A DNA stretch of 36,529 bases, from assembly GCA_016875215.1 (NCBI GenBank), contig VGRX01000013.1, positions 1 through 36,529 on the forward strand, in the 5' to 3' direction. The first letter of the stretch is position 1; every line of letters begins with the position of its first letter. Both the position numbers and the translations under genes were made by a program. This stretch comes from Deltaproteobacteria bacterium. GTDB taxonomy: Bacteria > Myxococcota_A > UBA9042 > CAIXZC01. This document shows, in pieces, positions 1 through 18,594 of this stretch. Below the pieces are notes generated by a model. That model ran no database searches, had not been told where the DNA came from, and saw only the letters and a list, made by a program, of their open reading frames with translations.

Positions 1-2481
1 TGCGACGACGGCAATCCCTGCACGGACGATTCCTGCGACCCGGCTTCGGGCTGCAAGTACGTCAGCAACACCGCGACGTGCTCGGACTCGGATGCGTGCA
101 CCGAGAAGGACGTCTGCGCCGGGGGAGTCTGCGCCGGCACTCCGCTCACCTGCAACGACGGCAACGCCTGCACCAATGACTCATGCTCCCCGGTGACCGG
201 GTGCGTGTTCGCCCACAATACTCTCCCCTGCGACGACAAGAACGCCTGCACCGCGGGGGATGCGTGCAAGGAAGGCAAGTGCGTCGGCGGTCCGGCTCTC
301 TCGTGCGACGACAAGAACGTCTGCACTTCGGACACGTGCGTTCCGGTCGTCGGATGCGTCAACGTCAACAACCTCAACCCGTGCGACAACGGCAACCTGT
401 GCGACGAAGGGGACTCCTGCAAGGACGGCAAATGCGTGGGCGGCAACATCAAGATCTGCCAGGATGGCAACTCCTGCACGACCGATTCCTGCAACCCGCT
501 CAAGGGGTGCATCTACACCGCGCTGGCGGATGGGACCTCCTGCGATGACGGGAATGCCTGTACCAGCGACGACAAGTGCGGCGGCGGCAAGTGCTCGGGT
601 GTGGGCAAGGTGTGCGATGACGGCAAGCTCTGCACGACCGACTCCTGCAACCCGCAGACGAACCAGTGCGTCTTTGAGTTCAACACGCTCCCCTGCGACG
701 ACAAGAACGCCTGCACCACCGGGGACGTCTGTGCTGCCGGAGTCTGCGGGACGACGGGCAAGCTCAACTGCGACGACGGGAATCCGTGCACCAACGACTC
801 CTGCGACCCGACGCTTGGGTGCCAGCACGTCCACAACACCCTGGTCTGCGACGACAAGAACGCGTGCACGACCGGGGACGTGTGCAAGGCCGGGGCTTGC
901 GTCGGCACGCCCAAGGTCTGCAACGACAACAACGTCTGCACCGACGACTCGTGCGATGCGGCAACGGGCAGCTGCATCTACGCTCCGAACAGCAGCCCTT
1001 GCAACGACGGGAACGTCTGCACCACGGATGACGTGTGTGCCGCCGGGAAATGCGGCGGAACGCCGGTGGCCTGCGACGACAAGAACTCGTGCACGCAGGA
1101 CGTCTGCATCTCTCCCGTGGGCTGCACGTACGTTGCCAAGCCGGAGGGCTCCGCCTGCGACGACGGAAGCAAGTGTACGAACCCGGATACGTGCAAGGCG
1201 GGGGCCTGCAGCGGGACGCCCGTGGTCTGCAACGACGGCAACGTCTGCACCGACGACTCCTGCGACCCGACGCTGGGTTGCGTGGCCGCGAACAATACGG
1301 CCCCATGCAACGACGGCTCTCTGTGCACCTCCGGCGACGTCTGTGCTGCCGGCAAATGCGGCGGCACGCCGGTGGTTTGCGACGACAAGAACCCCTGTAC
1401 GACGGACTCGTGCGCCCCGGCTGCCGGGTGCGGCTTCTCTCCCGCTCCCGACGGAACCAAGTGTGATGACGGCTCGGCCTGCACGGACGGAGATGTCTGC
1501 ACGGCCGGCAAGTGCGGCGGCACGGCCAAGGTCTGCAACGACAACAACGTCTGCACGAACGATACCTGCGACCCGACGATCGGGTGCCTCTACGCCAACA
1601 ACTCGAATCCGTGCTCCGACGGCAACGCCTGCACGGCCGGCGATGTCTGCGCCGGAGGCAAGTGCACCGGGACGCCCGTGACGTGCGATGACAAGAACCC
1701 CTGCACCAGCGACACCTGTGCTCCGGCCTCCGGCTGCGTGTACACCAACAACACGTCCCCGTGCGATGACGGCAACGTATGCACCGGCGGCGATGTCTGC
1801 TCCGGCGGCTCGTGCAAGGCGGGTACCGTGAACCTGTGCAACGGGTGCAACCCAACCGCCAAGCCAGGCTGCAACGGATGTGCCTGCGAGAAGTGCGTCT
1901 GCGCCATGGACCCGACCTGCTGCACCGTCAACTGGGATGCGGACTGTGTGAACCTCTGCAAGAACTCCTCGTGCCCGCAGACCTGCCAGATGAACGGATG
2001 CAACGTCCTCCCGCAGAAGGGATGTGGGGGGTGCGGCTGCGAGGCCTGCGTCTGCGCCCTCTTGCCCCAGTGCTGCACCGTCTCCTGGGATGCTGCCTGC
2101 GCCCAGGCATGCAAGAGCAACTGCGCTTCGGCATGCGGTGGTCCGGGAGGCGCCGGGTGTCAGACCATCTGGGGCGGAGGCGGCGGTTGCGGCGGTTGCC
2201 CGTGCGAGAAGGCGGTCTGTGCTGCCGACCCGTACTGCTGCAACTCCTCCTGGGACCAGCTCTGCGTCACCGAGTGCAAGAACTGGGCGATGGCGCATTG
2301 CTACAACACGGGCGGCCAGGGCTGCCGCACCCACAACCACAGCGGCTGCCACAACTGTCCCTGCCAGATCGCGGTCTGCCTCGCTTTGCCGGGCTGCTGC
2401 TTCGGCGGGGGCGGCAGCGGCGGCCAGTGGACCTCCCAGTGCGTCGCGGCCTGCGAGAAAGCCGGATACCTCTGCAAGTAG
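1..2481 (+). CDS. Giant Cys-rich CTDC-repeat surface protein, 5' end missing (paralogue 1)
   Basis: The reading frame is open from the first base, so the start lies outside the window; 826 residues are visible. Most of it is a tandem array of about 45-residue units alternating a CDDGNPCTDDSCDP..GC half with a DDGNACT.GDVC..GKC half, which resembles the Dictyostelium CTDC repeat (PF00526). The last 200 or so residues hold four modules of the form GC.C(E)..VC..DP.CC...WD..C; the fourth deviates, with a Gly-rich insert before its W. The gene is collinear with the second paralogue at a constant offset of 4,377 bases from the window start to at least base 760, so roughly 1.7 kb, including a lipoprotein signal, is probably missing upstream. 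I infer an extracellular disulfide-rich stalk carrying a C-terminal binding head; no enzyme signature is visible. Confidence 0.9.
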   Translation, partial: CDDGNPCTDDSCDPASGCKYVSNTATCSDSDACTEKDVCAGGVCAGTPLTCNDGNACTNDSCSPVTGCVFAHNTLPCDDKNACTAGDACKEGKCVGGPALSCDDKNVCTSDTCVPVVGCVNVNNLNPCDNGNLCDEGDSCKDGKCVGGNIKICQDGNSCTTDSCNPLKGCIYTALADGTSCDDGNACTSDDKCGGGKCSGVGKVCDDGKLCTTDSCNPQTNQCVFEFNTLPCDDKNACTTGDVCAAGVCGTTGKLNCDDGNPCTNDSCDPTLGCQHVHNTLVCDDKNACTTGDVCKAGACVGTPKVCNDNNVCTDDSCDAATGSCIYAPNSSPCNDGNVCTTDDVCAAGKCGGTPVACDDKNSCTQDVCISPVGCTYVAKPEGSACDDGSKCTNPDTCKAGACSGTPVVCNDGNVCTDDSCDPTLGCVAANNTAPCNDGSLCTSGDVCAAGKCGGTPVVCDDKNPCTTDSCAPAAGCGFSPAPDGTKCDDGSACTDGDVCTAGKCGGTAKVCNDNNVCTNDTCDPTIGCLYANNSNPCSDGNACTAGDVCAGGKCTGTPVTCDDKNPCTSDTCAPASGCVYTNNTSPCDDGNVCTGGDVCSGGSCKAGTVNLCNGCNPTAKPGCNGCACEKCVCAMDPTCCTVNWDADCVNLCKNSSCPQTCQMNGCNVLPQKGCGGCGCEACVCALLPQCCTVSWDAACAQACKSNCASACGGPGGAGCQTIWGGGGGCGGCPCEKAVCAADPYCCNSSWDQLCVTECKNWAMAHCYNTGGQGCRTHNHSGCHNCPCQIAVCLALPGCCFGGGGSGGQWTSQCVAACEKAGYLCK

Positions 2482-2554
2482 CCGCGCAGCCAGCGCCCTG
2501 CCGTCCACCCCAGAGCACCTTCGCTCGGAACTCCTGCCGAAGTCCGTCAGCGAA

Positions 2555-2583
2555 TTGACACACGCACACGTCTTCAGTATTAT
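2555..2583 (+). promoter_or_regulatory. Sigma-70-type promoter for the second Cys-rich lipoprotein
   Basis: TTGACA (2555-2560) and TATTAT (2578-2583) are separated by 17 bp, six of six and five of six matches to the -35 and -10 consensus. The site lies 60 bp upstream of the ATG at 2644, with a GGAGGAAGAG ribosome-binding site between. It implies that the second paralogue is transcribed separately from the first. Confidence 0.7.
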
Positions 2584-2643
2584 TCCGGTCCGAAGTCGAG
2601 GTTCTGTCATCAAGAATGCCTTCGTGGCGGGGAGGAAGAGAAG

Positions 2644-5055
2644 ATGAAGATTCTGCACCTGGTTGTCATGGGAACACTGCTGGCTGCGCTTTCGGCATGC
2701 AGCACGGGAACCGGCATCACTCCGACGACGGACGTGACCGGAGAGGATGGTACCATCGGCGATGCCGTCGATGGGAATGTCGAACCGGACGTACCGGTCA
2801 ACCCGGACGTGCCGGTCAACCCGGACGTGCCGGTCAACCCGGACGTCGAGGAGGATGTCCCGGTCCAGCCGTGCGGCTCTGACGCCGAGTGCGACGACGG
2901 GAATGCCTGTACCACCGACAAGTGCGACCCCAAGACGGGCTGCACGCACGAGAACAACACCGAGTCATGCGATGACGGCGACCAGTGCACGACGGAAGAC
3001 AAGTGCCTGGACGGTGCCTGTGTAGCGGGGACCGGGATCGACTGCGACGACCTCAACCCCTGCACCGACGACTCCTGCGATTCGGCAACCGGTTGCCTGC
3101 ATGCGAACAACGCCCTGAGCTGCGATGACGGCGATGCCTGTTCCGTGGGTGACGCGTGCCTGGACGGGCAGTGCGGCCCCGGGACCCAGATCGAATGCAA
3201 GGACGAGAACCCGTGCACGACCGATTCCTGCGACAAGGAAAAAGGGTGCGTATTGGAGAACAACACCGACCCGTGCGACGACGGCAATGGTTGCACCGAG
3301 AGCGACACCTGCGCGGATGGCGCCTGCGTCGGCAAGGTGACCCCGGATTGCCAGTGCATTGCGGACGAGGAGTGCAAGGAGTTCGAGGATGCCAATCTCT
3401 GCAACGGCACCCTCAAGTGCATCGACAAGCTGTGCCAGGTGGACGAGACGACCGTCGTGGTCTGCTCCACGGAAGGGCTGCCGCCCTGCACCATGGCCGA
3501 GTGCGTCCCGGAGACGGGCGAGTGCCTGCCGGTGAACGAACCTGACGAAACCCCGTGCGACGACGGCAACTTCTGCACCAGCGCCGACGCGTGTACGGCA
3601 GGCACCTGTGCGGGCACCGGGATCGTGTGTGACGACGGGAATTCCTGCAGCGACGACACCTGCGATCCTGCGACCGGCTGCCTGTTCATTGCCAACACCG
3701 ACGAGTGCGACGACCTCAGCGCGTGCACCAAGGACGACAAGTGCGTCGAGTTCGAATGCGTGGGAGCGGCGGTCGAGTGCGTGGACGAGAACCCCTGCAC
3801 CGACGACTCCTGTGATCCCGCTCTGGGCTGCGAGTTCCTCAACAACAGCAACGCCTGCACCGACGGCAACCTCTGCACCGACGGCGACGTCTGCGGCGAC
3901 GGGACCTGTGCCGGCGACGTCGTGATCTGTGACGACGGCAATCCGTGCACCGACGACTCGTGCGATCCGGCCGTCGGCTGCGTGTATACGCCCAACACGC
4001 TGGCCTGTGACGACCTCAACGCCTGCACGGAGAAAGACACGTGCAAGGATGGCGCCTGCATCGGAGAGTCGCTCTCCTGCGACGACAAGAACCCCTGCAC
4101 CGACGATTCCTGCGATCCGGCCACCGGCTGTGCGAACGTCAACAACGAATCCGGCTGCGACGACGGAGATGCCTGCACCGAGAAGGACGTCTGCAAAGAC
4201 GGCAAGTGCGCCGGCACCGCCCTGGTATGCGACGACGGCAACCCGTGCACCGATGACTCGTGTGACAAGGAGAAGGGCTGCCTGTTCGTCAACAACACCG
4301 GGGCCTGCAACGACGGCAACGCCTGCACCGAGAACGACGTCTGCAAGGACGGCGCTTGTGCGGGGTCGTCGATCACCTGTTCCGACTCCAACCCCTGCAC
4401 CGACGATTCCTGCGATCCGGCCAAGGGATGCGTGTTCACGAACAACGTTGCCACGTGCGACGATTCGGATGCCTGCACCGAGAAGGACGTCTGCAAGGAC
4501 GGCAAGTGCGTCGGCGCCGCCCTGACCTGCAACGACGGCAACCCCTGCACGGACGACAGTTGCGACAAGGCAACCGGCTGCGTCTTCCAGAAGAACACGG
4601 CAGCGTGCAACGACAACAACGCATGCACGAACGGCGATGCGTGCAAGGATGGCAAGTGCGAGCCTGGGGCTGCCCTGGTCTGCGACGACAAGAACGTCTG
4701 CACGTCGGACACGTGCGTGCCCGCAGTCGGGTGCGTCTTCGTCAACAACCTGAACCCGTGCGACAACGGCGACAAGTGCGACGAAGGGGATGCCTGCCTG
4801 GACGGCAAGTGCATCGGGGGCAACAAGAAGGTGTGCGAAGACAACAACCCGTGCACGACCGATTCCTGCGACCCGGCCACAGGCTGCGTCTTCAAGAGCC
4901 TGCCTGACGGAACCGTCTGCGACGACAACAACGCCTGCACGAACAAGGACGTGTGCACCGCAGGCAAATGCTCGGGGGTCGGCAAGATCTGCAACGACAA
5001 CAACCCATGCACGAACGACTCCTGCAACCCCGTCAACCAGAACTGCATCTTTTAG
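2644..5055 (+). CDS. Giant Cys-rich CTDC-repeat lipoprotein, N-terminal part, ended by in-frame TAG (paralogue 2)
   Basis: The ATG at 2644 follows a strong purine-rich ribosome-binding site. The product starts with a lipoprotein signal ending in LSAC (lipidated Cys19), then a short acidic linker containing three DVPVNP hexapeptides, then a long array of CTDC-type repeats (803 residues to the stop). Around residues 235-300 a non-repeat island (DETTVVVCS, CVPETGEC) is shared with the third paralogue, so it is a conserved element of the family. TAG at 5053-5055 interrupts the repeat array mid-unit and the same frame continues open for another 595 codons. At the collinear position the first paralogue has GAG (676-678). 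As it stands, this ORF would make a lipid-anchored stalk without the C-terminal modules. Confidence 0.88.
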   Translation: MKILHLVVMGTLLAALSACSTGTGITPTTDVTGEDGTIGDAVDGNVEPDVPVNPDVPVNPDVPVNPDVEEDVPVQPCGSDAECDDGNACTTDKCDPKTGCTHENNTESCDDGDQCTTEDKCLDGACVAGTGIDCDDLNPCTDDSCDSATGCLHANNALSCDDGDACSVGDACLDGQCGPGTQIECKDENPCTTDSCDKEKGCVLENNTDPCDDGNGCTESDTCADGACVGKVTPDCQCIADEECKEFEDANLCNGTLKCIDKLCQVDETTVVVCSTEGLPPCTMAECVPETGECLPVNEPDETPCDDGNFCTSADACTAGTCAGTGIVCDDGNSCSDDTCDPATGCLFIANTDECDDLSACTKDDKCVEFECVGAAVECVDENPCTDDSCDPALGCEFLNNSNACTDGNLCTDGDVCGDGTCAGDVVICDDGNPCTDDSCDPAVGCVYTPNTLACDDLNACTEKDTCKDGACIGESLSCDDKNPCTDDSCDPATGCANVNNESGCDDGDACTEKDVCKDGKCAGTALVCDDGNPCTDDSCDKEKGCLFVNNTGACNDGNACTENDVCKDGACAGSSITCSDSNPCTDDSCDPAKGCVFTNNVATCDDSDACTEKDVCKDGKCVGAALTCNDGNPCTDDSCDKATGCVFQKNTAACNDNNACTNGDACKDGKCEPGAALVCDDKNVCTSDTCVPAVGCVFVNNLNPCDNGDKCDEGDACLDGKCIGGNKKVCEDNNPCTTDSCDPATGCVFKSLPDGTVCDDNNACTNKDVCTAGKCSGVGKICNDNNPCTNDSCNPVNQNCIF
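2788..2841 (+). repeat. Three 18-bp tandem repeats encoding DVPVNP
   Basis: Three consecutive in-frame copies of an 18-bp unit encode Asp-Val-Pro-Val-Asn-Pro just after the lipidation site. Copies two and three are identical and the first differs by one base. The period keeps the frame, so copy-number change would only lengthen or shorten the linker between membrane anchor and stalk. Confidence 0.85.
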
Positions 5056-6840
5056 AACAACACGCTCGCTTGCGATGACAAGAACGCGTGCACGACGGGT
5101 GACGTCTGCACCAACGGGGCCTGCGTTCCCACGGGCAAGCTCGACTGCGACGACAAGAACCCGTGCACCAACGACGCCTGCGAACCGCTCAAGGGCTGCG
5201 TGTACGTCAACAACACCCTGGCCTGCAACGATTCCAACCTCTGCACGACCGGCGACGTTTGCAGTGCCGGCAAGTGCGTCGGCAAGCCGGTCGTCTGCAA
5301 TGACAACAACGTCTGCACCGACGACTCGTGCGACGCGAAGACCGGCCTGTGTGTCTACGCCCCCAACACCAGCCCCTGCAACGACGGCAACGTGTGCACG
5401 ACCGGCGACGTCTGCTCCGCCGGGAAGTGCGCCGGCAAACCGGTCGTCTGCGACGACAAGAACCCGTGTACGCAGGATTCCTGCGTCTCGCCGGCCGGAT
5501 GCGTGTACGTCAACCTGCCGAACGGGACCAAGTGCGACGACGGCAGCCTGTGCTCGAACAACGACCAGTGCCTGCTGGGCAAGTGCGTCGGGGCGGCGGT
5601 CAACTGCAACGACAACAACGTCTGCACCGACGACTCGTGCGACCCGAAGACCGGCTGCGTCTACAAGAACAACACGGCCCTGTGCAACGACTCGAACGCC
5701 TGCACCACCGGTGACGTGTGTGCGAACGGCAAATGCGCAGGCAAGCCGATCGTGTGCGACGACAAGAACTCGTGCACCAACGACTCGTGCAATCCGGCCA
5801 CCGGCTGCGTCTACCAGGCACTGCCGTGGGGTTCGAAGTGCGACGACGGGAGCGCTTGCACCACCGGTGACCAGTGCCTCTGGACGTTCTGCTTCGGCCA
5901 GTCGCTCAACTGCAACGACAACAACGTCTGTACCAACGACTCCTGCGACCCGAAGACCGGCTGCGTCTACACGAACAACACCAATGCCTGCGATGATGCC
6001 AATGCCTGCACGGGGGCGGACAAGTGTGCGGATGGAAAGTGCTCCGGCACCCCCATCAAGTGCGACGACCTCAATCCCTGCACGGACGACTCATGCGTAC
6101 CGGCAACCGGGTGCAAGTTCGTGAACAACACCGCACCGTGCGACGACGGCAACTCGTGCACGGTCGGCGATGCCTGCTCTGCCGGCACGTGCAAGGCGGG
6201 CACGACCAACCTGTGCACCGGCTGCTCGGCTCAGGAGAAGGGCGGATGCAACGGCTGTGCATGCGAGAAGTGCGTGTGCGCCATGGACCCGACGTGCTGC
6301 ACCGTAGCCTGGACCGCGGATTGCGTGGCGCTGTGCAAGAACGCCTCGTGCCCGCAGACCTGCCAGCTCAACGGCTGCAACACGCTCCCGCAGAAGGGGT
6401 GCGGCGGGTGCGCTTGCGAGAAGGCGGTATGTGCGGCGGACCCGTTCTGCTGCAACGTTGCATGGGACAACATCTGTGCGGGCGAGTGCAAGTCGATCGG
6501 CAACTCGGTGTGCGGCTCGCCGGGCGGGGCCGGATGTGCCACCTCGCTGGCCGGTGAGAAGGGGTGCGGCGGTTGTCCGTGCGAGAAGGCGGTCTGTGCA
6601 GTCGACTCGTTCTGCTGCACCACGGCGTGGGACGCGCTCTGCGTCAGCGAGTGCAAGAACTTTTGTGTGGCCCACTGCCACAAGTCGGGCGGGCAGGGTT
6701 GCCGCGTGCATGCCACCAAGGGGTGCGGCGGCTGTCCGTGCGAGAAGGAAGTCTGCGCCAACGACGCGGCCTGCTGCAACAGCCAGTGGGATGCGTTCTG
6801 CGTCGTGGCCTGCGCCAACCTCGGCTATCTCTGCAAGTAG
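5056..6840 (+). pseudogene. Severed C-terminal half of paralogue 2: CTDC repeats and four WD/CC modules
   Basis: This is the direct in-frame continuation of the 2644 gene after its TAG. All Cys spacings stay intact through the remaining CTDC repeats and four terminal modules (CC..AWTADC, CC..AWDNIC, CC..AWDALC, CC..QWDAFC), ending in YLCK then TAG, as in paralogue 1 (YLCK) and paralogue 3 (YICK). No ATG with a ribosome-binding site occurs at its beginning; the first start-like codon in frame is a GTG at 5200 inside a repeat, without a convincing Shine-Dalgarno. It is therefore unlikely to be an independent gene. It is either the dead half of a recently broken gene, a readthrough product, or evidence of a base-calling error at 5053. 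Read through, the protein would be 1,398 residues. Confidence 0.8.
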
Positions 6841-6852
6841 TATCCGGACCGG

Positions 6853-6884
6853 GCGGAGGGCGGTTTCAGCCGCCCTCCGCTCTT
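6853..6884 (+). terminator. Rho-independent terminator after paralogue 2
   Basis: A perfect 11-bp GC-rich stem (6853-6863 with 6870-6880, six-base loop TTTCAG) is followed by TCTT. It begins 12 bases after the TAG at 6838-6840. The T-run is short, but position and stem strength fit a terminator. That it sits at the end of the downstream half supports 2644-6840 having been one gene. Confidence 0.75.
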
Positions 6885-7004
6885 CCCCTGCACTTTCGCC
6901 CAGGTCATCCGCTTTCCTTGTCGTCCGGACGATTTGGGATTCCCAAATTCACCATCAACTCCAGCGCTACCCCGGCACACTGACCCCGGCAGACTGTTCC
7001 GGAC

Positions 7005-7088
7005 CACCAGATTGGTGCCAGATGCAAGGAGCGACCGAGCCGGCCAAATGAGGCGGGGCTCAAGCCCCGTCGCAGTGAGGCGGCGACG
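7005..7088. repeat. Cluster of short inverted repeats between paralogues 2 and 3
   Basis: Three hairpin-capable palindromes are visible: CACCA-GAT-TGGTG (7005-7017), a nine-pair GC-rich stem with a CA loop (7052-7071, centred on GGGGCT/AGCCCC), and CGTCGC paired with GCGACG (7068-7073 with 7083-7088). The octamer TGAGGCGG occurs twice (7049-7056 and 7076-7083). Function is unknown; they could be REP-like elements or part of a 5' regulatory region. The rest of the 385-bp gap holds only the terminator and the promoter described separately. Confidence 0.5.
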
Positions 7089-7142
7089 AAGCAACGCCGC
7101 AGGTGGCCCGAGATGGTGGTCCGGGGGATTTCGACATCGGCA

Positions 7143-7171
7143 TTGACAGGGGGGGGGCGGATCCGTATAGT
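7143..7171 (+). promoter_or_regulatory. Sigma-70-type promoter with a G9 spacer tract
   Basis: TTGACA (7143-7148) and TATAGT (7166-7171) lie 17 bp apart, 54 bp before the ATG of the third Cys-rich lipoprotein. The first nine spacer bases are all G (7149-7157). Such a homopolymer can slip, and one base gained or lost would move the spacer to 18 or 16 bp. Confidence 0.75.
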
Positions 7172-7225
7172 GCGCCCGCTCTCAGGCGGATTGACACCAG
7201 TGCCGACATGGCAAAGGAGGAGAAC

Positions 7226-10189
7226 ATGAAGCATCTCGTACTTGGGAAGAGGACAATGGCGCTCGTCGGTTTCGCAGCCCTGCTCTTTGCGAGCGGGTGC
7301 TCGGGATCCGGTTCGATATTGACCCCCGAGGACACCGGCGGAGCAGACGAACAGTCGGGCGATGCAGTCATCGGCACCGACAACCAGGTCGAGGAGGATC
7401 TGGGGAAGGAGGATCTGCCTCCCGCCCCCTGCAAGAGCGATGCGGATTGCGACGATTCCAACCTGTGTACCACCGACAAGTGCATTCCGGGCACCGGGTG
7501 CGAGCACCTGAACAACACGGCGCCGTGCGATGACGGCGATGCCTGCACCGTGGACGACGTCTGCGCCGACGGCGTATGCGCAGGAGGGCACGGGCTCGAC
7601 TGCGACGACCTCAACGCCTGCACGGACGATTCGTGCGACGCTGCCTCCGGTTGCATGCACGTCAACAATGCGGCCGGCTGTGAGGACGGCGATGCCTGCA
7701 CGCTCGGAGACACGTGCCAGGACGGCCAGTGCAAGGGCAAGACTCCCCTCGAATGCAAGGACGACAACCCCTGCACCGATGACACCTGCAACCCGGCCAA
7801 GGGGTGCGAATTCCCGTACAACACAGCCGCCTGTGACGACGGCAACGGGTGCACCGTCGACGACGCGTGCAAGGATGGCCTCTGCGTCGGCAAGCAGACT
7901 CCCGATTGCAAGTGCACCACGGACGTCGAGTGCAAGCAGTTCGACGACAATGACCTCTGCAACGGTACCCTCATCTGCGTCGAGCAGCAGTGCGCGATCG
8001 ACGAGACGACGGTCGTCGTTTGCGATAGCGAGAGCACCCCGGCTTGTCATGTGGCCGCATGCGTCCCGGAGACGGGCAAGTGCGAAGACAAGATGGCGGA
8101 TGACGGCGTCGCGTGCGACAACGGCGACAAGTGCACCACGAACGATACCTGCAAGGGAGGGAAGTGCGAAGCCGGCGAGACGGTCACGTGCGACGACGGC
8201 AGCGTCTGCACCGACGATTCCTGCACGCCTGACGAAGGGTGCGTGTTCACGGCCAACAAGGCCGCCTGTGACGATGGAAGCGAATGCACGAAGGACGATG
8301 TCTGCGCCGAGGGGCAGTGCGCCGGCATCCCGATCGAGTGCAACGACGCCAACGGCTGCACGGACGACTCGTGCGATCCGCTCGTCGGCTGCGTGTTCAC
8401 CAACAACTCCTCGGCCTGCAACGACGACAGCTTCTGCACCGAGAACGACGTCTGCCTGGACGGGAAGTGCGGTGGGACCGCGGTCGTCTGCAGCGACGGC
8501 AACGGGTGCACGGATGACACCTGCGACCCCAAGCTCGGATGCGTCTACACGAACAACACGGCCGTCTGCGATGACAAGAACAAGTGTACGGTCGGCGACA
8601 TCTGCGGCGAAGGCGCCTGCCTGGCGGGGGCCCCGGCCGACTGCGACGACAAGAACGTGTGCACGTCCGACACGTGCGTTCCGGAGGCGGGCTGCGTGCA
8701 GGTCAACAACGCCAACGCGTGCGAGGACGGCGACCTGTGCACCACCGGCGACATCTGCAAGGACGGCAAGTGCGGCGCCGGTGCGGCGGTAGTCTGCAAC
8801 GACAACAACCCCTGCACTGCGGACAAGTGCGACCCCAAGATCGGGTGCGTGTTCACTCCGGTGGCGGATGACACCAAGTGCGACGACGGAAACGCCTGCT
8901 CCACCGGGGACAAGTGCAAGGCGGGTGTCTGCGGCGGCGTCGGGCTCAACTGCGACGACAAGAACCCGTGCACGGACGACAAGTGCGACAATCCGCAAGT
9001 GGGCTGCTACCACGTGTACAACACCGCCAAGTGCGACGATGGGAATGCCTGCACCGTGGGTGACATCTGCAGCCAGGGTGTCTGCCAGGCCGGCAAGACC
9101 CCCCTGGAATGCAACGACAAGAACCCCTGCACCAACGACAAGTGCGACCCGGCCACGGGCTGCGTCTTCACGAACAACGGGCTGTTCTGCAATGACGACA
9201 ACGCCTGCACGACGACGGACCAGTGCTCGGGCGGCAAGTGCGTCGGCAAGCCCAAGCTGTGCAACGACCTGAACCTCTGCACGGACGACTCTTGCGATCC
9301 CAAGACCGGATGCCTGTTCGCACCCAATACGCTCGGTTGCGACGACGGCAACGCGTGCACCCTGGCCGACAAGTGTGCGGACGGGCAGTGCAAGGGCGGC
9401 ATGCCGCTGCTCTGCAACGACTCGAATCCGTGCACGGACGACACTTGCGTTCCTGCCACGGGTTGCAAGTTCACCAACAACACCAAGCCGTGCGACGACG
9501 GAAACGTGTGTACCGGCGGCGACGTGTGCAACGGCGGAAGCTGCCTCGCGGGCAAGGTCAACATGTGCAACGGCTGCAACGTCAGCGACAGCAAGGGGTG
9601 CAACGGCTGTGCCTGCGAGAAGTGCGTGTGCGCCATGGATCCCTACTGCTGCGAGGTGAAGTGGGATTCCTCCTGCGTGAGCGAGTGCAAGAGCACCTCC
9701 TGCCCCCAGACCTGCCAGATGAACGGCTGCAACCCGCTTCCGCAAAAGGGGTGCGGCAACTGCGGCTGCCAGGCCTGCGTGTGCGCCGAGGACCCGTTCT
9801 GCTGCAACACGGCGTGGGATTCGCTCTGCGCCAGCGAATGCCAGGAGTGCGGCTCCGCGTGCGGCGCCCCCGGCGGCGCCGGCTGCCAGAATTCCGTCCC
9901 GGGAGAGAAGGGATGCGGCGGCTGCGCTTGCGAGGAGGCCGTCTGTGCGGAGGATCCGTTCTGCTGCAACACGGCGTGGGACAGCATCTGCGTGAACGAG
10001 TGCATCAACGATGCCGTGGCGCACTGCTACAACACCGGCGGCCAGGGGTGCAAGACGCACGAGACGAAGGGCTGCGGCGGCTGCGCCTGCCAGGTCAAGG
10101 TCTGCGCCGCGGAACCGTCCTGCTGCAACACCAAGTGGGATGCCAAGTGCGTCCAGAAGTGCATCGACACCGGCTACATCTGCAAGTAG
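7226..10189 (+). CDS. Giant Cys-rich CTDC-repeat lipoprotein, intact (paralogue 3)
   Basis: I chose the ATG at 7226 because AAAGGAGGAG stands just before it and the next residues form a lipoprotein signal ending in FASGC (Cys25); an in-frame ATG-initiated extension to 7103 would put the signal internally and start upstream of the promoter. The 987-residue product has the same architecture as its neighbour: acidic linker, CTDC-type repeats, the DETTVVVC / CVPETGKC island near residues 230-295, more repeats, then four terminal modules (CC..KWDSSC, CC..AWDSLC, CC..AWDSIC, CC..KWDAKC) and a GYICK ending. It is shorter than the reconstructed second paralogue, so repeat number varies between copies. 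Probably a lipid-anchored, cell-surface disulfide-rich rod. Function unknown; adhesion or matrix binding is only an inference. Confidence 0.9.
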   Translation: MKHLVLGKRTMALVGFAALLFASGCSGSGSILTPEDTGGADEQSGDAVIGTDNQVEEDLGKEDLPPAPCKSDADCDDSNLCTTDKCIPGTGCEHLNNTAPCDDGDACTVDDVCADGVCAGGHGLDCDDLNACTDDSCDAASGCMHVNNAAGCEDGDACTLGDTCQDGQCKGKTPLECKDDNPCTDDTCNPAKGCEFPYNTAACDDGNGCTVDDACKDGLCVGKQTPDCKCTTDVECKQFDDNDLCNGTLICVEQQCAIDETTVVVCDSESTPACHVAACVPETGKCEDKMADDGVACDNGDKCTTNDTCKGGKCEAGETVTCDDGSVCTDDSCTPDEGCVFTANKAACDDGSECTKDDVCAEGQCAGIPIECNDANGCTDDSCDPLVGCVFTNNSSACNDDSFCTENDVCLDGKCGGTAVVCSDGNGCTDDTCDPKLGCVYTNNTAVCDDKNKCTVGDICGEGACLAGAPADCDDKNVCTSDTCVPEAGCVQVNNANACEDGDLCTTGDICKDGKCGAGAAVVCNDNNPCTADKCDPKIGCVFTPVADDTKCDDGNACSTGDKCKAGVCGGVGLNCDDKNPCTDDKCDNPQVGCYHVYNTAKCDDGNACTVGDICSQGVCQAGKTPLECNDKNPCTNDKCDPATGCVFTNNGLFCNDDNACTTTDQCSGGKCVGKPKLCNDLNLCTDDSCDPKTGCLFAPNTLGCDDGNACTLADKCADGQCKGGMPLLCNDSNPCTDDTCVPATGCKFTNNTKPCDDGNVCTGGDVCNGGSCLAGKVNMCNGCNVSDSKGCNGCACEKCVCAMDPYCCEVKWDSSCVSECKSTSCPQTCQMNGCNPLPQKGCGNCGCQACVCAEDPFCCNTAWDSLCASECQECGSACGAPGGAGCQNSVPGEKGCGGCACEEAVCAEDPFCCNTAWDSICVNECINDAVAHCYNTGGQGCKTHETKGCGGCACQVKVCAAEPSCCNTKWDAKCVQKCIDTGYICK

Positions 10190-10352: not shown

Positions 10353-11720
10353 ATGGAACAGGTATTTTTGTACATCCGAGAGAACCGTGAGCGGCATCTT
10401 GCCGAGCTCTTCGAGCTCCTGCGCATCCAGAGCATCTCGGCCGATTCGACGAAGAACGCCGAGACGCGCAAAGCCGGCGAGTTCATCGAGCGATTGATGA
10501 AGCGCATCGGCATCGAGAACGTGCGCCTGATCGAGACGGGGGGTCACCCGGTCGTCTACGGCGACTGGCTGCATGCCCCTGGCAAGCCGACCGTCCTGGT
10601 CTACGGGCACTACGACGTCCAGCCCGTGGACCCACTGTCCGAGTGGGAATCCCCGCCGTTCGAGCCGACCATCCGTGACGGTGCCATGTATGGCCGCGGC
10701 ACGTCGGATGACAAGGCGCAGGTGATGACGCACCTCTACGCGCTCGAAGCGCTCATGAAGGTCAACGGCCGGCTCCCCTGCAACATCAAGTTCTTCCTCG
10801 AGGGAGAGGAAGAGTCGGGCAGCGCACACACGGCCCCGTTCGTGGTCGAGAACAGCGACATGCTCTTGTGCGACGCCGTCGCGATCTCGGACACGGCCTG
10901 GTATTCCCGGCAGGTACCGACGATCGTCTATGCGCTGCGTGGCCTGTCCTACATGGAGTTCAAGGTCAAAGGACCGGTGCGGGATCTGCACTCCGGCAGC
11001 TACGGCGGCATGATTATGAATCCGCTCAACGCTGTGGGCCGGATCATCTCGAAGCTCCAGGACGAGGACGGCCATGTGCTCGTGCCCGGGTTCTACGATG
11101 ACGTGGTGCCGCTCACGGACGAGGAGCGGCGCGAATTCGCTGCGGTCGGGGACCCGGATGGAGAGATCATGGCCGACATCCGGATTCCGGCCATGTGGGG
11201 TGAGAAGGGCTACACGACCATGGAGCGCAACTGGGGGCGCCCGTCGCTGGACGTGAACGGGATCTTCGGCGGCTTCCAGGGAGAAGGCGGAAAGACGGTG
11301 ATTCCGTCGTTCGGCGGCTTCAAGCTGAGCACCCGGCTGGTTCCGAATCAGAAGCCAGAGAAGATCTTCCGTCTCGTTGCGGACTATGTCCGCTCCATCT
11401 GCCCCCCCGGCGTGTCGGTGGAGGCGAAGTACCACCACGGTGGAGAGCCGGTCAGCGTTCCGACCGACAACTTCTTCATCGAGTCAGCCCGCGGGGCGTT
11501 CGCAGAGGTCTTCGGCAAGCGGCCGGCGCTCGTGCGGGAAGGTGCGTCGATCCCGATCACGGCGACTTTCGTCCAGGTGCTCAAGGCAGCGCCGGTTCTC
11601 ATCGGGTACGGCCTTCCCGACGACCACATCCACTCCCCCAACGAGAAGATGGAGCTTGAGAACTACTACAAGGGTATCGAGACCAACGCGGTCATGTACC
11701 TGAAGTTCGGCGGCCGGTAG
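10353..11720 (+). CDS. M20-family metallopeptidase (dipeptidase type)
   Basis: The 455-residue product has the length and motif order of M20 dipeptidases of the CNDP/DUG1 type: GHYDVQP near residues 85-91 (first metal His and the following Asp), GRGTSDDK near 114-121 (bridging Asp), EGEEESGS near 150-157 (catalytic and metal Glu), an ISDT metal Asp near 180, DLHSGSYGG in the dimerisation lid, and DDHIHSPNE near the C-terminus (last metal His). It has no signal peptide, so it is predicted to be a cytoplasmic two-zinc exopeptidase cleaving dipeptides or small peptides. The start at 10353 is preferred over 10305 because GGAGGAGGA lies directly before it. The lipase-like gene follows after 40 bp on the same strand, so the two may be co-transcribed. 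Substrate cannot be read from sequence. Confidence 0.9.
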   Translation: MEQVFLYIRENRERHLAELFELLRIQSISADSTKNAETRKAGEFIERLMKRIGIENVRLIETGGHPVVYGDWLHAPGKPTVLVYGHYDVQPVDPLSEWESPPFEPTIRDGAMYGRGTSDDKAQVMTHLYALEALMKVNGRLPCNIKFFLEGEEESGSAHTAPFVVENSDMLLCDAVAISDTAWYSRQVPTIVYALRGLSYMEFKVKGPVRDLHSGSYGGMIMNPLNAVGRIISKLQDEDGHVLVPGFYDDVVPLTDEERREFAAVGDPDGEIMADIRIPAMWGEKGYTTMERNWGRPSLDVNGIFGGFQGEGGKTVIPSFGGFKLSTRLVPNQKPEKIFRLVADYVRSICPPGVSVEAKYHHGGEPVSVPTDNFFIESARGAFAEVFGKRPALVREGASIPITATFVQVLKAAPVLIGYGLPDDHIHSPNEKMELENYYKGIETNAVMYLKFGGR

Positions 11721-15354: not shown

Positions 15355-16689
15355 CTACAATCTCCAGAGCAGATCGAACGCCAGGATCATGTTGGCCCCG
15401 TATCCCTTGGCGTTCGACGGTGGGTCGGTGGGACTCTCCTGGTTGTCGGTGAGGTCGTACCAGTTCCGCTCGAACGCGGCGCCGATGCGCCATGCGTCGC
15501 TGACGTTCCACCGCAGTCCGGTCCCGACGCCGATGCGATCGCGGTTGGGGTTGTCCAGCGTGACCATCGGGGTCGGAATCGGGGACCAGTCGCGAAGCAC
15601 GCCCACCATGAACTCCCACGACGGGGTGACGTGGCAGAGCACGCCGAGTGCGACGTTGAGGGAGTTCCCGTAGTTCTTCGGGTCGACGAACTCGGTCTTT
15701 CCCATGAGCGGGGCGTCCAGCACGGTCCGCTGTTCCTGGAGCACCTGGTAGTGCCAGTAACGAATGTCGGCTGCCACCTCGAAATCGTCGGAAAGCCGCC
15801 AGTTGATCCCGCCCTGGAGCGTGAAGGGAATGGCGAGGCTGGTGGTGTGGCCGATGGTCGTCACGTCGCCGGTCGGCTCCTCGAGAGTCACGCTCCCGTC
15901 CAGGTGCACCGGCGCCCCGGAAGCGAACATGGCACCGATGTCCAGGGTCGGAAGGGGGCGCAGCAGGACGCCGATGTCGCCGGTGAACGTGTACCCGAAA
16001 CCGGACAGCTCCATGCGGGAATCGGTGGGCCAGACCCCCTCGTCGAACCGCTTGTCCGGGTCATCGAAGACGAGCGGATTCATCATGCGGGATGCCTTCA
16101 TGTGGATCATCAGGCAGTTGAGATTCGCCCCCAGCACCAGCCGCGGGTCGATCTCCACGGCAGCGGACGCGGTCGCACGTGCGGCGATGAAGAGAACGTC
16201 GAGCGCCATGTAGCGCGTGGGCTCGTCCTCAGGGAGGGAGGTTCCGAACACGTTGGGAGCGTAGGCAGCGATTCCGACCCGCCAGCGTTCCGTTGCGAGG
16301 TCCGATGTGACGGCGAGAAACGGACTCACACCCATGGCGGTCTCGGGCGAGATGGTGTGGTCGGGATGGAGGTGGCCCTGGCTGTCGTACAGTCGAATGC
16401 CGGCGTCGAACAGGAACGTGGAGGCCGAGAAGTATGCTGCAGTCCCTGGAGTCAGCAGCAGCCCTGCCGGGTTGTGGAAGATGGCGGTTGGATCATCGGG
16501 GTGCGCAATCACGGCCAGCATGCCTACGCGGCGGGTCCCGAAATCCACGTTGGAGAACCCCCCGGCCTGGACGGGGAGAGCCGTCCACAGGATCATGGCA
16601 GCGCAGAGGGTGGCGGCAAGACGTGGAGAAGGCGCTCGCTTCCGGACCCACCGGCTGCAGGCCCGGGCGGGTATACCCTTCTTCGTCAT
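15355..16689 (-). CDS. FadL/TodX-type outer-membrane channel for hydrophobic compounds
   Basis: The 444-residue product has a long basic signal peptide ending near PVQAGG, then an N-terminal hatch-like region with DDPTAIFHNPAGL, the hallmark of the OMPP1/FadL/TodX family (PF03349). It continues with alternating amphipathic beta-strands and ends in an aromatic/hydrophobic C-terminus (FDLLWRL) as barrel proteins do. FadL homologues passively move fatty acids or other hydrophobic molecules across the outer membrane. The ATG at 16689 follows GAGGAAG and overlaps by four bases (ATGA) the stop of the upstream lipocalin frame, which signals translational coupling. Only six bases separate its stop from that of the convergent VolA-like lipase. 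This placement suggests uptake of lipase products. Confidence 0.85.
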   Translation of the reverse strand: MTKKGIPARACSRWVRKRAPSPRLAATLCAAMILWTALPVQAGGFSNVDFGTRRVGMLAVIAHPDDPTAIFHNPAGLLLTPGTAAYFSASTFLFDAGIRLYDSQGHLHPDHTISPETAMGVSPFLAVTSDLATERWRVGIAAYAPNVFGTSLPEDEPTRYMALDVLFIAARATASAAVEIDPRLVLGANLNCLMIHMKASRMMNPLVFDDPDKRFDEGVWPTDSRMELSGFGYTFTGDIGVLLRPLPTLDIGAMFASGAPVHLDGSVTLEEPTGDVTTIGHTTSLAIPFTLQGGINWRLSDDFEVAADIRYWHYQVLQEQRTVLDAPLMGKTEFVDPKNYGNSLNVALGVLCHVTPSWEFMVGVLRDWSPIPTPMVTLDNPNRDRIGVGTGLRWNVSDAWRIGAAFERNWYDLTDNQESPTDPPSNAKGYGANMILAFDLLWRL

Positions 16690-16883
16690 TCCGCTTCCTC
16701 GGACAGCACGACGCTCTCGATGAATGCGGGCCCGGTGAGCTTCTTCTTCTCGGTGCCGAGGTCGATCTCGATATCGGCCTCCGCTTCGAGCCGGTAGACC
16801 ACCGGGTTGCCGGCGAAGATCCTGACCACCTGCTGCTGTGCGGCGTTCATCTGGTCGAGGAGGGCATCCCGGTCATGAAGCCG
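16686..16883 (-). pseudogene. Severed C-terminal part of the Svf1/AttH-like lipocalin protein
   Basis: The frame of the lipocalin gene continues open for 65 codons after its TGA at 16886-16884. The continuation (RLHDRDALLDQMNAA, then RIFAGNPVVYRLEAEADIEI and LTGPAFIESVVL) looks like the closing strands of a lipocalin/Svf1-like domain: G.P..YR followed by an amphipathic strand and G.A..E. The frame ends in TGA overlapping the FadL ATG as ATGA, the arrangement expected at the true end of an operon gene. An internal ATG lies at codon 13 of the continuation, without a clear Shine-Dalgarno. Either the gene carries a recent nonsense mutation, or the stop is read through, or base 16884-16886 is miscalled. 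Confidence 0.72.
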
Positions 16884-17792
16884 TCATCCGGTGAACGTCC
16901 CGCTCACGCGCACCGGGTCGTTCTTCCGGCCCGCCTTGAACTTGTACCGAGTGGCATAGTCATGCCCCTTGGGATCGTTCTTCTTCTTGTCGGTGGACAG
17001 CGAGATGGAATCCGTGAAGAGGAGCATTCCGTCCTTGCCCGTCACCATCACACGGGCCACCAGCTTGCCGCCGAGCTCCTTGCGGGCCTTGAACGTGATG
17101 AAGACGACGGAGTAGTCCGAGTGGAAGAAGCGTGCGACGTACCAGTGCGACGCGTAGTCGGTGCCCAGCGCATTCTGCACCATGTGGTCGAGGTACGCGT
17201 CCCCCTCGAACGCATAGCTCTGGCCGTCGATCTCCGCCGTTCCCGTGACCGAGGCCCTCGGCACCTGGTAGAAGATGTCGACGTACTTCTCTGCATCCTC
17301 GCCGAGCTCGAGCCTCCCGCCGTAGACTTTCACACCGTCAGCCCACAGTCTCCCCTGGAGGTCCATCTTGAACTGGCTCTCCTTGACCTTGACGGTGAAG
17401 TCGCGTCCTTTCAGCGCAATCCAACTCGCGCCGACCCCGATACGGCCGATCTTCGGATCCTCGCCGTACTCGCTGGTCTTGTGCTCGAATGCCAGGTGGA
17501 CCGAGCTCTTCCCGGGCCTCGAGTAGGATACGTTGACTGCGGCGCTGCCTGCGAAGACCCCGAGGTTTGTGTAGATGAAGTTGAGGTAGACGATGTGGCC
17601 ATCCCTGGAGCGGGCAGCCATGGTCCAGCTCTCGGTATAGTACTTGTGCTTGTCCGGATGCCGGAGCCAGTCCTTGTCCGTCGTCTTCCGGGTCTTCGCC
17701 CCCGACTTCACCGGGGTGACATCGCATCGGGCGGACGCTGACGGCAGGACGAGGCCTGCCAACAGGATCAGCGCTGCGAGGTACCGCCTCAT
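16884..17792 (-). CDS. Svf1/AttH-like lipocalin-fold exported protein, ended early by TGA
   Basis: The ATG at 17792 is one base after the TGA of the preceding lipoprotein gene and is followed by a clear signal peptide (RRYLAALILLAGLVLPSASA). The 302 visible residues contain KYYTESWT, LNFIYTNLGVF, a central beta-rich core, AYLDHMVQNALG and ASHWYVARFFHSDYSVVFITF, an order resembling the Svf1-like and AttH/CrtC lipocalin-like families (paired beta-barrels that bind hydrophobic ligands). The protein stops at GTFTG just before what looks like its last strands, which lie in frame downstream. I infer a periplasmic carrier or chaperone for a hydrophobic molecule acting with the FadL-type channel. Family assignment is by pattern only and is moderately sure. 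Confidence 0.75.
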   Translation of the reverse strand: MRRYLAALILLAGLVLPSASARCDVTPVKSGAKTRKTTDKDWLRHPDKHKYYTESWTMAARSRDGHIVYLNFIYTNLGVFAGSAAVNVSYSRPGKSSVHLAFEHKTSEYGEDPKIGRIGVGASWIALKGRDFTVKVKESQFKMDLQGRLWADGVKVYGGRLELGEDAEKYVDIFYQVPRASVTGTAEIDGQSYAFEGDAYLDHMVQNALGTDYASHWYVARFFHSDYSVVFITFKARKELGGKLVARVMVTGKDGMLLFTDSISLSTDKKKNDPKGHDYATRYKFKAGRKNDPVRVSGTFTG

Positions 17793-17793
17793 C

Positions 17794-18594
17794 TCAGTTC
17801 TCCTGGATCGTGGCGGCCTGCGCCGTCCATTCGAACTCGAACTCCCATGCATCCGCGGTCTTGTCGCCGTCGAGATCGAGGTCGGGAGGGATGTCCGACT
17901 GCTCGAGGAACTTGTCCAGCGGAAGGCCGAGAACGGTGATTCCCGCCGCTTCCTTTACGGTGAGCGCGCCTACGAGCTTCCCCTCGGCAATCGCACTGCC
18001 GTCGACGGCCACCCTGCCGCTCAGCTCCAGCTCGCGAATGGGGAGCTCCGGCGGCTTGAGCGCTGCGTTCGGGAAGACCAGGAACGCCGACTTGGCTGTG
18101 GTGAAACGGTCCCCCTCGAGGATGCAGCCGACCTCGCTCCCGTCGTCCTGGAACGCGAACGAGTCGCCGGATGCCTCGCCCGCGCCGATGCGCAACGTCA
18201 GCTCCCCCGTGTCGCGGTCGTCCAGGAGCACGTCGAGCAGCACGTTGAGCCCCTTCTTCTCGACCTCGGAAGCAAAGTAGTCATTGAGCAGCTTCAGGAC
18301 CTCACCGGTGAACGGCCCGTTCAGGACGAGCGAGTCGAAGCGGTACGCCCTGTCGGACAGGTCCGCGACCTCGACGAGCGGGACATCCTCGATGGCGTCC
18401 GCTGCCGGACCGCCCGCACAATTGCAGTTGCAGGTGCAATCGCTCGTGCCGGTGCACTCGACCTTCTGGCCCTTCGGGTTGAGCGGGTCCCCGGGAAGCG
18501 CTCCCTTGCCCAGCCCGGTGTACGTCTCGTCGATGCCGCAGGCAAGCAGCCCGAGAAACGGCAGAGCGACCGACAGCGGCCGGGGGATTCCCAT
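17794..18594 (-). CDS. Lipoprotein of unknown function, first gene of the FadL operon
   Basis: The 266-residue product starts with a textbook lipoprotein signal (LLAC, Cys19) after GAGGAGGAA. A short segment with five closely spaced cysteines (CTGTSDCTCNCNC) follows, then about 190 residues of alternating beta-strands and amphipathic helices without any motif I recognise. Near the C-terminus is an Asp-rich loop (DLDLDGDKTADAWE) like an EF-hand or dockerin Ca-binding loop. The 13-codon upstream extension to 18633 was rejected because the Shine-Dalgarno and signal peptide fit the ATG at 18594. It is the promoter-proximal gene of a three-gene operon with the lipocalin protein and the FadL-type channel, so an envelope role in the same process is likely. 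Confidence 0.8.
   Translation of the reverse strand: MGIPRPLSVALPFLGLLACGIDETYTGLGKGALPGDPLNPKGQKVECTGTSDCTCNCNCAGGPAADAIEDVPLVEVADLSDRAYRFDSLVLNGPFTGEVLKLLNDYFASEVEKKGLNVLLDVLLDDRDTGELTLRIGAGEASGDSFAFQDDGSEVGCILEGDRFTTAKSAFLVFPNAALKPPELPIRELELSGRVAVDGSAIAEGKLVGALTVKEAAGITVLGLPLDKFLEQSDIPPDLDLDGDKTADAWEFEFEWTAQAATIQEN

Follow-up and report, generated by a model that had tools for sequence, protein, structure and literature searches.

The contig described here raises the question of why a long and otherwise open reading frame for a Cys-rich lipoprotein is split by a single in-frame TAG. A sequence-only reading had offered three options, namely a very recent nonsense mutation, read-through of the stop with anchored short and long products, and a sequencing error. 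The window, that is, the whole stretch of DNA analysed (36,529 nucleotides), is the entire contig C13 of a MAG (5.9 Mb, 857 contigs, 94% complete).

Layout of the locus and signals for one gene or two

The TAG in an otherwise open frame was confirmed, with 803 codons before it and 594 after it, and the full frame (2644-6840) runs to its true stop, the TAG at 6838-6840 (Table 1). The intact protein has 1,397 residues; the figure of 1,398 given previously counted the TAG as one. The first part consists of a lipoprotein signal (LSAC; LLAALSAC) followed by an acidic linker and then Cys-rich repeats, and the continuation contains more repeats as well as Cys-rich modules of the CNGCACEKCVCAMDPTCC type at the C terminus. 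The split gene sits between paralogue 1 and paralogue 3. Paralogue 1 is collinear with the split gene at +4,377 from base 1 to about base 2391, so the constant offset claimed earlier holds over that length and is lost beyond it, where paralogue 1 has an insertion of 6 residues. The pairing of the stop with a GAG codon was borne out, TTT GAG at 673-678 lying opposite TTT TAG at 5050-5055. Because the tail after the stop is collinear with two paralogues and one relative, the open run past the TAG far exceeds what chance would give.

Table 1. Features of the split gene and its neighbours, and other lone stops found in the same assembly (positions are in the window unless another contig is named)
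Feature	Position	Strand	Details
Paralogue 1	1-2481	+	truncated by the contig start
Sigma-70-like promoter before the first part	2555-2583	+	TTGACA-17-TATTAT; 11/12 matches
First part of the split gene	2644-5052	+	803 aa, 116 Cys; PF00526 E 1.8e-73
In-frame TAG	5053-5055	+	in frame with ATG 2644
Same-frame continuation, ends with TAG	5056-6840	+	594 aa, 104 Cys; PF00526 E 9.1e-46
Strong terminator-like hairpin, G+C-rich, after the second stop	6850-6882	+	z -4.9; weak T tract
Paralogue 3	7226-10189	+	987 aa; own promoter-like site 7143-7171
TGA in Svf1-like lipocalin gene (16689-17852)	16884-16886	-	found in the 1.3 Mb scan
TAG in pseudopilin gene	C112:5283		relatives intact with Y, W or F
TAA in secretin gene	C37:13136
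TAA in TGase/P-domain gene	C31:2625
TAG in another Cys-rich repeat protein	C15:16415
TAG in MopE/DUF2341 protein	C92:9719

PF00526-type Cys-rich repeat segments gave 228 matches in the same genome, located on window positions 1-10189 and on many other contigs, and matches were present in all 36 of the genomes searched. These proteins form a large class-wide family, predicted to be secreted, whose repeat, named after Dictyostelium, has undergone expansion in bacteria. The C-terminal Cys-rich module is common to the three tandem paralogues and one relative, and the Pfam search gave no name for it.

The expression signals were compared at both ends of the frame. A promoter was found before the first part, and the scan from 5055 to the gene end found none. 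Among the stretches folded, a strong hairpin occurs only after the second stop, and folding at 5055 gave none comparable to it. The claim of a strong terminator only after the second half is thus upheld as regards the hairpin and its position, and it is weakened by the poor T tract and by the terminator consensus scan, which did not call this hairpin. A strong start with independent transcription just past 5055, a possibility named in the sequence-only reading, did not emerge: the tail lacks a convincing start, a signal peptide and a promoter. The presence of two separate genes, the second beginning past the stop, for example at GTG 5200, where AAGGG lies 4 bases upstream, has a nearly negligible probability. 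Ribosome-site-like patterns of this kind also occur by chance before in-frame starts within unbroken coding sequence, with two cases in the head and three in paralogue 3. Furthermore, GTG 5200 falls within a repeat, has neither a signal peptide nor a promoter, and as a start would put a protein with roughly 100 Cys in the cytoplasm. The split frame is one gene with a lesion, and the signals in the DNA show a single predicted transcription unit.

Constraint on the tail and the codon before the lesion

In a comparison of the split gene with paralogue 1, Ka/Ks was 0.365 upstream of the stop and 0.351 downstream of it, and the cysteines were kept at 36/36 and 98/100 positions, respectively. The tail contains no other stop, and 212 single changes in it could create one. 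At a neutral distance of 0.05, 3.5 new stops would be expected in the tail and the probability of none is 0.03. This makes an age below that distance probable for the lesion. Since the tail is without decay, either the lesion is very young, or it is an error of assembly, or the stop is read through; the lack of secondary decay in the tail is as expected of a recent nonsense mutation or a consensus error. An established pseudogene, fixed long ago, would explain that a stop is present, but no second lesion accompanies it, Ka/Ks is unchanged across it, and neutral distances greater than about 0.05 are disfavoured (P 0.03). We consider this origin very unlikely.

The earlier proposal that one G-to-T change explains the TAG is not established, as the paralogues differ by ~0.75 synonymous changes per site and several codons are found across the 436 corresponding repeat sites of the genome, including AAG (40), GAG (24), CAG (21), TCG (9) and TAG (1). 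AAG, GAG, CAG and TCG are each one step from TAG. As all four occur at the repeat position, the GAG of the paralogue does not fix the earlier codon, and the G-to-T change is one among several one-step routes to TAG.

Mixing of paralogue reads is also an unlikely source of the TAG, because none of the 31-mers spanning the 5053 site recurs within the window and the best paralogue match in the genome to the 300 bases around the stop is 76%. No independent copies of the site were found by an exact-pattern search of viral contigs, and a scan of genome contigs that used the neighbouring M20 peptidase returned distant loci only. This peptidase (window 10353-11720) itself shows 56-61% identity to homologues from f6, a different family within the class, and the matches in its own family are very weak; such a distribution suggests transfer or loss.

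Evidence bearing on read-through

Functional read-through of the UAG, or its decoding by a suppressor tRNA, would yield two products, a short anchored one and, in minor amounts, a long one that includes the C-terminal modules. This is consistent with the single promoter and with the terminator-like hairpin placed only after the tail. The downstream frame is under constraint, which is equally expected from a recent nonsense mutation or an error. Stop codons of E. coli can be read through at high levels in certain contexts and at low temperature, TGA more than TAG and TAG more than TAA, although most reporters with read-through at 37 C remain below 1% (PMC11126739). Leakage of stops at a low level is documented in E. 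coli (PMC11126739) and calls for no particular explanation at this locus.

On the other hand, all three paralogues and the next gene end in TAG as their ordinary stop, and RF1 is present in the genome. No decoder was apparent: a CTA anticodon (tRNA CUA) was absent from the anticodons read among 38 tRNA matches, where a missed tRNA is possible in a MAG that is 94% complete, and a search of the genome for PylS did not find it. No stimulatory RNA structure was detected downstream of the TAG at 5053 (z 0.34). Moreover, the stop is not conserved in homologues, as neither paralogue 1 (GAG) nor the distant homologue in the closest relative found (G005) has a stop at this site; the 36 genomes include none of the same genus. 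Among the repeat matches listed for the same genome, the split gene alone contains a stop, and among those listed for relatives one contains a TGA. Functional read-through is therefore left with several results against it, and we regard it as quite improbable.

We consider it very unlikely that leaky UAG termination in this lineage gives two anchored forms of giant Cys-rich lipoproteins, of which the long one carries the C-terminal Cys-rich module, and that the stop serves to switch expression. Recoding of TAG was rejected given the presence of RF1, the failure to find PylS and a CTA anticodon, and the use of TAG as an ordinary stop elsewhere. Selenocysteine does not apply to a TAG.

Lone stops elsewhere in the assembly and the origin of the TAG

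The background of lone stops in the same MAG was estimated by heuristic scans of 1.3 Mb and then 2.0 Mb (about a third of the genome). A site was retained when an in-frame stop had coding-like sequence on both sides and the frame was the best of six; the last scan also required no early ATG, and gene junctions were removed from the list partly by eye. An initial scan that used only the codon score returned mostly antisense shadow frames and gene junctions, and the six-frame comparison took its place. The scans left at least six other lone stops in mid-gene positions, among them TAG, TAA and TGA, in unrelated genes (Table 1). The intact state in relatives was established for 2/6 of these, the TGA in the window and the pseudopilin TAG. 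The Svf1_C profile spans that TGA, and the nine closest homologues of the gene in relatives have R, K or G at the site in uninterrupted frames. Selenocysteine was rejected at this TGA because the relatives carry these residues and not Cys.

Other TGAs, possibly encoding selenocysteine, were left out of the count: those of SelD (C96:168), a thioredoxin-like UxxC protein (C174:226, motif 'SCT-U-GTC') and, less surely, a PP-loop protein (C16:16630). A tRNA-Sec was found at C102:2013, and a protein near its gene (C102:3089) possibly contains selenocysteine too.

The stop-creating fraction of single changes is 3.5% in the split gene, and about 7 stops in roughly 1.7 Mb of coding DNA correspond to an estimated rate of about 1e-4 changes per base, a value that a fragmented MAG (857 contigs) could plausibly have. 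Random point changes fit these data, because the stops are of mixed kinds and lie in unrelated genes. As similar lone stops are scattered in this way, the one at 5053 is most probably a very recent disabling mutation or a base error and not a deliberate signal for read-through; it belongs to a diffuse background made up of recent nonsense alleles or errors of the consensus. Very probably, the TAG is an isolated and non-functional premature stop, being either a very recent nonsense allele in the population sampled or a wrong consensus base in the MAG, and these two origins are nearly equally probable. A genome with about 25 nonsense genes would equally be within normal biology, so that error and real mutation are not separable by this count. 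Two of the three options offered initially thus survive, namely the very recent nonsense mutation and the sequencing or assembly error, and functional read-through has gained no positive support.

On this reading, the gene has been under normal constraint until now. If the base is real, the product would be an anchored lipoprotein of 803 residues with the signal and 26 of the 41 counted repeat motifs, lacking the C-terminal Cys-rich modules; we infer both this shortened product and its loss of function. The second half would not be produced as a separate protein, because it has no convincing start, signal peptide or promoter of its own. If the base is wrong, the intact lipoprotein would be made.

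In a long gene of a fragmented MAG, one clean in-frame stop gives weak support to read-through unless the genome-wide background of stops is counted, which here amounts to at least half a dozen lone stops in a third of the genome. No literature specific to this case was found on MAG pseudogenes or on Cys-rich lipoproteins of Myxococcota. The protein shares the C-x-D-x-N-x-C-T repeat with the PF00526 (Dicty_CTDC) repeat proteins, and it differs from them by its bacterial lipoprotein signal and its distinct C-terminal Cys-rich module. With programmed read-through the locus shares an in-frame stop followed by a conserved frame, but the stop here is not conserved and neither a signal nor decoding machinery was found. 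The closer likeness is to a lone nonsense allele or a wrong consensus base in a draft MAG, with which it has in common the single substitution, the pristine flanking frame and the similar stops of mixed kinds elsewhere in the assembly. Compared with the other lone stops, the split gene is more striking only through its length, its repeats and its adjacent paralogues.
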